A stretch of 64,000 nt of DNA from Geothrix sp. 21YS21S-2. Its GTDB lineage: Bacteria > Acidobacteriota > Holophagae > Holophagales > Holophagaceae. Shown here piece by piece: positions 40,650 through 42,784 of the stretch (positions are counted from its first letter, which is position 1; the number at the start of each line of letters is the position of its first letter). Under the pieces are notes generated by a model that saw only the letters and a program-made list of their open reading frames with translations, was not told the DNA's origin and did not search any database. The DNA lies in assembly GCF_030846775.1 (NCBI RefSeq), contig NZ_CP132910.1, positions 2,948,001 through 3,012,000 of the forward strand. Reading direction: 5' to 3'. The translations under genes and the position numbers were made by a program.

Positions 40650-41684
40650 ATGGCTTTTATGGACTGGGGCAAGGCCCAATTCATTGAAATCATCGAGTGG
40701 CTGGACGATTCAAATGACGTGCTGGCCTGGCGTTTCCCCGTGCGGAACCAGGAGATCAAGAACAACGCCCAGCTGGTGGTGCGGGAGAGCCAGGAGGCCA
40801 CCTTCGTCCACGAGGGGCAGTTCGCCGACACCTTCACCCCCGGCACCCACACCCTCTCCACGAAGAACATGCCCATCCTGGCCGACCTCAAGGGCTGGAA
40901 GTACGGCTTCGAGAGCCCCTTCAAGTCGGAGGTCTACTTCACCAACACCCGGCTCTACAACGACCTGGGCTGGGGCACCTCCAACCCGATCATGATGCGG
41001 GACGCCGACTTCGGCATGCTGCGCATCCGCGCTTTCGGCATCTATTCCATCCGGGTGAAGGACTCCAAGAAGTTCCTCAAGGAGCTGGTGGGCACCAACG
41101 GCGTCTACACCAAGGACGACATCACCGAGCAGCTGCGCAAGAGCCTCATCAGCAAGTTCACCGACGCCCTGGGCGAGGCCAAGGTCCCCGCCCTGGACCT
41201 GGCAGCCCACTACGACGACCTCTCGGACCTGCTTCGCCAGAAGATGGACCCCGAATTCCAGACCATGGGCCTGGAGTGCTCCAAGCTCTTCATCGAGAAC
41301 ATCAGCCTCCCCGAGGAAGTCGAGGCCATGATGGACAAGCGAACCTCGGTGGGCATGATGGCCCCCGTGATGGGCGCCTACACCCAGATGCAGGTGGCCG
41401 ATTCCGTGCCCCTGGCCGCACAGAACCCGGGCGGCATCGCCGGCATGGGCATGGGCCTGGGCATGGGCGTGGGCATGGGCAACATGATGGGCCAGCAGAT
41501 GGGCGGCGCCATGGGCCAGATGGCCCAGGCCCCCTACCCCGCCGGCCAGGCCGCCCCGGCCCCGGCCAAGGGCATCAAGGAGGAGCTCACCGAACTCAAG
41601 GATCTCTTCGACAGCCAGCTCATCACCCAGGCCGAGTTTGATAAGCAGCGCAGCGCCATTCTTTCCAAGCACGGAATGGCCTGA
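40650..41684 (+). CDS. SPFH-domain protein with C-terminal SHOCT motif
   Basis: The 344-residue protein matches the YdjI/virion-core-like SPFH group. It opens MAFMDWGKAQFIEIIEWLDDSNDVLAWRFP and contains the SPFH strand set (GQFADTFTPGTHTLSTKNMPILADLKGW). A Met/Gly-rich low-complexity stretch spans about residues 265-300, and the protein ends in a SHOCT helix pair (IKEELTELKDLFDSQLITQAEFDKQRSAIL). SPFH proteins form oligomeric membrane-associated scaffolds; no signal peptide or membrane segment is evident here. Its position between gmd and a riboswitch-controlled kinase gives no clear functional link. Confidence 0.8.
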   Translation: MAFMDWGKAQFIEIIEWLDDSNDVLAWRFPVRNQEIKNNAQLVVRESQEATFVHEGQFADTFTPGTHTLSTKNMPILADLKGWKYGFESPFKSEVYFTNTRLYNDLGWGTSNPIMMRDADFGMLRIRAFGIYSIRVKDSKKFLKELVGTNGVYTKDDITEQLRKSLISKFTDALGEAKVPALDLAAHYDDLSDLLRQKMDPEFQTMGLECSKLFIENISLPEEVEAMMDKRTSVGMMAPVMGAYTQMQVADSVPLAAQNPGGIAGMGMGLGMGVGMGNMMGQQMGGAMGQMAQAPYPAGQAAPAPAKGIKEELTELKDLFDSQLITQAEFDKQRSAILSKHGMA

Positions 41685-41739
41685 CCGCCCTGGAATGGCG
41701 TTGCCCCTCAAGGGATCGGCAAGGTAGGATCTAATGTCA

Positions 41740-41812
41740 CCGAGGAGCGTTGCGAGCCGTCCCGTCCGGACGGCCTAGGCTCGGCGGCCTCCGTCCCGTC
41801 CAACGACGCTCA
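41740..41812 (+). ncRNA. S-adenosylhomocysteine (SAH) riboswitch
   Basis: The segment matches the SAH riboswitch architecture. Helix P1 is CCGAG (41740-41744) with CTCGG (41780-41784). The conserved GAGCG-T-TGC follows immediately. P2 is a 7-bp stem gccgtcc/ggacggc (41756-41774) with a 5-nt loop, followed by the conserved CTAGGCTCGG. The pseudoknot P4 is GAGCGT (41745-41750) with ACGCTC (41806-41811), preceded by AACG as in the consensus. Known members sense SAH and turn on genes of the methylation cycle (ahcY, metH, metF). This one lies 67 bp upstream of a PfkB-family kinase, making SAH-responsive expression of that gene likely. Confidence 0.88.
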
Positions 41813-41840
41813 CCCCGCGATCCCGCAAGGGCGCAGGGTG
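41811..41840 (+). promoter_or_regulatory. Hairpin following the SAH aptamer (possible expression platform)
   Basis: CACCC...GGGTG encloses GCG/CGC and CCC/GGG with a GCAA loop. Its first base is shared with the P4 pseudoknot, so aptamer folding could compete with it. No U-tract follows; the ribosome site (GGAG near 41869) is 30 bp away. Confidence 0.4.
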
Positions 41841-41878
41841 GGCATCCATCTCCATTCCACCACGTCCGGAGAACCCCC

Positions 41879-42784
41879 ATGAGCCTTCTCGCCGTTGGAA
41901 GCGTAGCGTTCGATGACCTCGAGACCCCCTCGGGCCGCCGGGACAACATCCTGGGCGGTTCGGCCAGCCACTTCTCCCTCAGCGCGAGCCGGTTTCATCC
42001 CGTGCAGGTGGTGGCGATCGTCGGCGAGGATTTCGGTCCGGACCATTTCAAGGTTTTCGAAGGCCGCCCCATCGACCTCTCGGGCCTGATCAAGACCCCC
42101 GGCCTCAGCTTCCACTGGAAGGGGCAGTACGGCAGCGACCTCAATGAAGCCAGGACCCTGGAGACCCACCTGAACGTCTTTGCGGGCTTCAAGCCGGACC
42201 TTCCCGCGGCCTTCCGCAGCTCCCAGTACCTCTTCCTGGGCAACATCGATCCCACCCTCCAGCTGGACGTGGTCAGGCAGATGTCCCCCCGCCCCAAGTG
42301 GATCGCCCTGGACACCATGAACTTCTGGATCGACGGCGCCCGCGGGGCCCTGCTCGAGGTCCTCAAGGAGATCGACATCCTCCTCGTGAACGAGGCCGAG
42401 GCCCGCTCCCTCACGGGCGAGCGGAACCTCGTGAAGGTCTACGCAGCGATCCGCAAGCTCGGCCCGCAGATCCTCGTCGTCAAGCGCGGCGAGTACGGCA
42501 TGCTCCTGTTCACCCCCGAGGGGCACTTTGCCGCTCCCGCCTTCCCCCTGGAGGAGGTCCACGATCCCACCGGAGCGGGCGACACCTTCGCAGGCGGGTT
42601 CCTCGGCTACCTCGCGGCCGCCGGGACGCTGGACCTGGCCACCATGAAGCGCGCGGCCCTGGCCGGAACGGTCATGGCCAGCTTCGCGGTGCAGGATTTC
42701 GGGACGGAGCGGGTGCAGGCTCTGGGCACCGAGGAGTACGAGAGCCGGATTGGAGCATTCAGGGAAATGATCCATATCGGTTGA
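41879..42784 (+). CDS. PfkB-family kinase under SAH riboswitch (adenosine kinase candidate)
   Basis: The 301-residue protein is a ribokinase-fold small-molecule kinase. It has the N-terminal GGSASHFSLSASR substrate and lid region, the NEAEARSLTG segment and the ATP/anion-hole motif DPTGAGDTFAGG at residues 229-240, with Asp235 as catalytic base. Annotation pipelines would call it a sugar kinase. The SAH riboswitch in its leader suggests a different substrate: adenosine, released with homocysteine by SAH hydrolase, whose removal pulls that reaction forward. This is inference from the riboswitch. Start at ATG 41879 with GGAG about 8 bp upstream; the frame upstream overlaps the aptamer and is not coding. 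Confidence 0.85.
   Translation: MSLLAVGSVAFDDLETPSGRRDNILGGSASHFSLSASRFHPVQVVAIVGEDFGPDHFKVFEGRPIDLSGLIKTPGLSFHWKGQYGSDLNEARTLETHLNVFAGFKPDLPAAFRSSQYLFLGNIDPTLQLDVVRQMSPRPKWIALDTMNFWIDGARGALLEVLKEIDILLVNEAEARSLTGERNLVKVYAAIRKLGPQILVVKRGEYGMLLFTPEGHFAAPAFPLEEVHDPTGAGDTFAGGFLGYLAAAGTLDLATMKRAALAGTVMASFAVQDFGTERVQALGTEEYESRIGAFREMIHIG

Follow-up and report, generated by a model that had tools for sequence, protein, structure and literature searches.

The SAH-riboswitch regulon described for Proteobacteria consists of a core of ahcY and metF, with metH, COG1189, PF04020 and COG1385 included in some taxa (PMC4239095), and metK was reported by Leyn et al. 2014 not to be under SAH riboswitches in Proteobacteria (PMC4239095). 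A second survey added PF04993 to the SAH regulon (PMC3766115). A kinase is absent from the SAH regulons of both PMC4239095 and PMC3766115, and a search of the open-access literature for an SAH riboswitch together with adenosine kinase or with Geothrix gave nothing relevant. The SAM-Chlorobi, SAM/SAH and SAM-I riboswitches that precede metK or ahcY serve the same metabolic cycle but belong to other aptamer classes.

We analysed a 64-kb stretch of DNA of Geothrix sp. 21YS21S-2 (herein the window), in which a leader with the same aptamer, conserved core and P4 as the ahcY, metF and metH riboswitches of Leyn et al. 2014 was identified. One copy of this aptamer in the genome lies before ahcY, but the copy in the window precedes a gene for a PfkB-family kinase, and its counterparts in relatives precede kinase-metK, while the proteobacterial regulon (PMC4239095) contains neither a kinase nor metK. 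The features of the locus are as follows.

40650..41684, + strand: SPFH/Band 7 protein with SHOCT-like tail, the upstream neighbour (Pfam); a synteny anchor that lies outside the switch
41736..41818, + strand: SAH riboswitch aptamer, RF01057 (cmscan, 51.2 bits; covariation in 29 relatives)
41737..41743, + strand: P1 5′ strand, pairing with 41781-41787 (Rfam alignment, sequence, pair counts)
41745..41750, + strand: P4 pseudoknot 5′ strand, GAGCGT (sequence; pair counts over 29 sequences)
41756..41774, + strand: P2 hairpin of 7 bp, 41756-41762 with 41768-41774 (sequence, Rfam alignment, pair counts)
41781..41787, + strand: P1 3′ strand (Rfam alignment, sequence, pair counts)
41806..41811, + strand: P4 pseudoknot 3′ strand, ACGCTC (sequence; pair counts over 29 sequences)
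41808..41843, + strand: candidate expression platform, the anti-P4 hairpin GCTCACCC...GGGTGGGC, its 5′ arm sharing bases with the P4 3′ strand (leader folds)
41868..41871, + strand: likely Shine-Dalgarno sequence GGAG, 7 nt before the ATG (sequence)
41879..42784, + strand: PfkB/ribokinase-fold kinase of 301 aa, a probable adenosine (nucleoside) kinase (Pfam PF00294, 3kd6 homology, DPTGAGD)

The covariance-model search (cmscan, Rfam 15) matched RF01057 to positions 41736-41818 of the + strand with 51.2 bits and an E value of 1.6e-6 over the full model (1-78), well above the gathering score of 37 bits, and this was the sole Rfam match above any gathering score in the whole 64-kb window. The initial annotation had recognized P1 (CCGAG/CTCGG), a conserved segment, a 7-bp P2, AACG and a 6-bp P4 as elements of an SAH riboswitch, and had proposed the covariance model as a check. 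All of these elements are indeed present and the score agrees with the assignment, although the start given there, 41740, falls about 4 nt inside the aptamer. P1 carries one A-C mismatch and has CCGAG/CTCGG as its core; the conserved segments GAGCGTTGC and CTAGGCTCGG are found together with AACG, and the aptamer agrees with RF01057 at its strongly conserved positions.

P1, P2 and the P4 pseudoknot were then scored for covariation over 29 aligned aptamers from relatives. Bases were paired in 91.9% of the cells, both sides had changed in 12 of the 19 pairs, and the covariation score of 0.307 was reached by none of 500 shuffles (0.153 in shuffles), while structures slid along the alignment scored far below the true one. 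P4 is paired in 100% of the cells and intact in all 29 aptamers, its pair 41750-41806 varying among C-G, U-G and U-A, the last being the version of the window. All three helices of RF01057 are thus conserved with compensatory changes, and in the window's genus three species have an intact aptamer with an intact P4. Judged on sequence and covariation, the leader 41736-41878 is a genuine SAH riboswitch and an ordinary member of its class, predicted to bind SAH.

The ATG of the kinase (41879) is located 60 nt downstream of the aptamer. Within this interval the anti-P4 hairpin shares the P4 3′ strand, so that P4 and the hairpin are alternatives. Folding of 46 leaders gave, in 45, a predicted probability above 0.5 that the last bases of P4 pair downstream, and the mean downstream-pairing probability was 0.86, as against 0.53 with shuffled tails. 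The position of this hairpin right after the aptamer, in the window as in other leaders, makes it a candidate expression platform for the SAH riboswitches of Holophagaceae in general. In the leader of G051 (genus Geothrix) its 3′ arm takes in the likely Shine-Dalgarno bases, and occlusion of these bases would result in translational control; in the window, unlike G051, GGAG lies about 25 nt beyond the hairpin. The sequence ACGTCCGGAG at the Shine-Dalgarno position is invariant across three species of the window's genus. Scans of the leader found neither an intrinsic terminator nor a sigma-70 promoter, and since no terminator was found, control at translation is the most likely mode. Another candidate, an anti-Shine-Dalgarno in the P2 loop (TCCGGACG with CGTCCGGA), was rejected, since G073 does not conserve the P2 side of this pairing.

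In this riboswitch class the binding of SAH raises expression (ON), and by analogy we infer the same direction for the window. Upon build-up of SAH the aptamer would fold around its ligand and the P4 pseudoknot would form, leaving the P4 3′ strand unavailable to the downstream hairpin that uses the same bases; with the hairpin blocked, expression of the kinase would rise, most likely at translation.

SAH elements were collected from 93 genomes of the class and their targets were assigned by the coordinates of ahcY and kinase matches. The genome under study, 5.25 Mb in size, carries exactly two SAH riboswitches, the second directly before ahcY, whereas none was found in 14 control genomes. A total of 81 elements were identified in the class: 66 before ahcY, 11 directly before the kinase (with a gap of 33-144 nt), 2 before ahcY-kinase and 2 at contig ends. 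As one of the latter shows the start of ahcY, the number before ahcY becomes 67 of 81, with a single element cut by a contig end. Altogether 80 of the 81 precede ahcY and/or the kinase, the SAM-cycle placement expected for RF01057, and therefore no assignable SAH element of the class is located elsewhere. The 11 loci answer the proposal of the initial annotation that orthologues be checked for the same aptamer. The kinase-linked aptamers and those of the operons in sister genus g8 carry GCGTTGC, as against GCGCTGC in the aligned ahcY-only aptamers.

Among 396 Acidobacteriota genomes, RF01057 was detected above the cut-off in Holophagaceae only. A custom covariance model (R1) detected no SAH element at E values up to 1 in 98 kinase-bearing loci (0.99 Mb) outside the SAH-linked set, nor did Rfam scans in 36 cross-phylum kinase loci, and direct SAH-kinase linkage thus appears confined to Holophagaceae.

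The kinase itself belongs to the PfkB/ribokinase superfamily (PF00294, PfkB carbohydrate kinase; 84.8 bits against a cut-off of 25.8), and its DPTGAGD motif is invariant in 12 relatives. Among solved structures 3kd6 is the closest (phmmer, 321 bits). It was deposited under the title 'Crystal Structure of Nucleoside Kinase from Chlorobium tepidum in Complex with AMP', and the open-access literature yielded no published study that characterises it. The predicted structure of the kinase (mean pLDDT 88) superimposes on 3kd6 with Z 44.3 and rmsd 1.5 over 297 residues at 51% identity, and in full-length sequence, fold and catalytic motif the kinase is of the C. tepidum nucleoside kinase type, though the AMP of 3kd6 could sit in the nucleotide-donor site. 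The next structure matches, at Z around 32, are nucleoside kinases of M. jannaschii and Burkholderia and the adenosine kinase of M. tuberculosis, mixed with ribokinases (ribokinase Z 31.8, tied with them), and fold alone therefore does not pick the substrate. The M. tuberculosis adenosine kinase (2pkm, 6c9p and others) has the ribokinase fold in common with the kinase of the window (Z 31-32) but only 18-19% identity, and is of a different subfamily. The protein stays below every curated NCBIfam equivalog cut-off, and by a wide margin in all matches: none of the adenosine-kinase models gives a match at all, and the ribose-1-phosphate kinase model NF053626 gives 46.3 bits against a cut-off of 330. 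For this reason, our claim is that the protein works like an adenosine kinase, not that it belongs to the curated family. Taken together, it is most likely a ribokinase-fold nucleoside kinase, with adenosine as the putative substrate (adenosine + ATP to AMP + ADP).

The gene neighbourhoods in relatives connect the kinase with the SAM cycle. In sister genus g8 the order SPFH-SAH-ahcY-kinase-metK was found in two genomes, and ahcY-kinase-metK in a third on a contig that ends within ahcY; ahcY and kinase are thus under one SAH element with metK there, while in the genome of the window they form two loci, each with its own copy of the sensor. The SPFH gene upstream of the window riboswitch also precedes SAH-ahcY-kinase-metK in g8 (tblastn synteny: L033, L034, L081 and L176). 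Since the same SPFH gene lies upstream, the SAH-kinase unit of the window is probably either a remnant of such an operon or the precursor of one. Two further genomes of the window's genus encode the SPFH/Band 7 protein with 90-99% identity.

In genus g3 (Geothrix) all 8 SAH-kinase loci run on into metK. At these loci (L070 and L162-L168) the kinase is an extra copy, an unlinked one being also kept, and metK is likewise an extra copy where the assembly is complete enough, as in G021; the g3 unit looks like a duplicated or transferred module. In the kinase tree, the SAH- or ahcY-linked kinases stand apart from 26 unlinked family members (branches 99/99 and 96/95), the linked ones comprising those of the window's own genus and the Geothrix second copies together with g8 (99/99); the operon kinase of G069 and two unlinked rows are not firmly placed.

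Outside the family, 76 kinase loci from many phyla (L086-L161) were compared. The gene for MTA phosphorylase, mtnP, is directly upstream of the kinase in 43 of the 76, as in all seven genomes of family f2, a pairing for which no description was found in the literature searched; ahcY is near the kinase in only one. This one is in SAR202 (Chloroflexi; L127:3347-9581), where a SAM-I riboswitch (77.6 bits) is followed in order by probable mtnA, mtnP, a rhodanese-like gene, the kinase, ahcY and metK, so that the same kinase family occurs inside a SAM-I-headed cluster. Apart from the rhodanese-like gene, the partners all act on SAM or on SAM-derived nucleosides. Much of the pathway for recycling of SAM by-products is assembled in this one cluster. 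The initial annotation had asked whether orthologues elsewhere sit beside ahcY, as they do in the g8 operons and in L127. In several Bacteroidota (L119, L131, L146, L150, L153, L158 and L160) the kinase gene adjoins a tRNA gene. Since mtnP is a commoner neighbour than ahcY in the wider family, the substrate could be broader than adenosine, and the ancestral role of the kinase may have involved several SAM-derived nucleosides. On the other hand, the kinase is present in every high-quality genome of the class and is kept where mtnP was not found, in the complete genome G073 of the window's genus, in the 1.2-Mb genomes G008 and G009, which also keep ahcY, and in genera g2 and g8-g11; this favours SAH-derived adenosine over the MtnP product as the common substrate.

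These observations bear on what the riboswitch and the kinase do together. The reaction of SAH hydrolase (AhcY) runs in both directions, with SAH synthesis favoured, and removal of adenosine therefore pulls SAH hydrolysis forward. In support of the initial annotation, which proposed adenosine from SAH hydrolysis as a possible substrate, we consider it probable that SAH turns the kinase on and that the kinase clears adenosine as AMP, returning it to the nucleotide pool and drawing the hydrolysis of SAH. The kinase would then be one of several exits for adenosine, since the genome also encodes three adenosine-deaminase-family proteins, a PNP and an MTAP; a role as the only route is unsupported, as adenosine-deaminase-family and PNP-family genes occur throughout the class. 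The frequent mtnP neighbour, the probable mtnA at the head of the L127 operon and the weak likeness to ribose-1-phosphate kinase models (46 bits) would fit a different role, salvage of MTA or 5′-deoxyadenosine, in which the kinase acts on the MtnP product (a ribose-1-phosphate-type sugar) or on many nucleosides and SAH control is secondary. This we regard as unlikely, because the kinase persists in genomes without detected mtnP, the score is far below the curated cut-off, the closest structure is on record as an AMP-bound nucleoside kinase, and such a role gives no evident reason for the SAH sensor and the linkage to ahcY and metK.

The SPFH gene common to the window and the g8 operon raises a further question, whether the riboswitch is a mere passenger, left when ahcY departed from an older SAH-ahcY-kinase operon, of a general sugar or ribose kinase as the Pfam name (carbohydrate kinase) might indicate. 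Loss of ahcY is a possible history, but aptamer and P4 have stayed intact in three species of the genus, eight genomes of a different genus also have SAH-kinase, there joined to metK and with a second copy of the kinase that falls in its own clade, and 3kd6 is an AMP-bound relative, all of which make this account very improbable. Lower still we place a variant RNA sensing another ligand, such as SAM or adenosine: ligand specificity is not readable from a covariance score and our assignment is based on sequence and structure, but the RNA retains the strongly conserved positions of RF01057 and a twin SAH element in the same genome precedes ahcY.

Compared with the published regulons, the putative adenosine-clearing kinase is a new kind of target gene for a known riboswitch class, and metK, through its linkage in Geothrix, is another. 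The initial annotation expected a new gene class to join the SAH regulon, which fits the two surveys (PMC4239095, PMC3766115), neither of which names a kinase. The SAH-kinase-metK operons of Geothrix further suggest that SAH riboswitches can control metK. We lean towards the wider view that the 3kd6-type 'sugar kinase' family serves the SAM cycle in bacteria as a dedicated adenosine kinase, with a sequence that sets it apart from the M. tuberculosis type, and that its control by the SAH riboswitch was gained in Holophagaceae, together with metK in Geothrix. The SAH sensor thus points to a testable function for a family that is labelled as generic carbohydrate kinase in many phyla. Hydrolysis of SAH needs the removal of adenosine, yet the enzymes that remove it are missing from the published SAH-riboswitch regulons examined. 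If our reading is true, accumulation of SAH would switch on its own hydrolysis, the removal of adenosine and the resynthesis of SAM as one feed-forward circuit.
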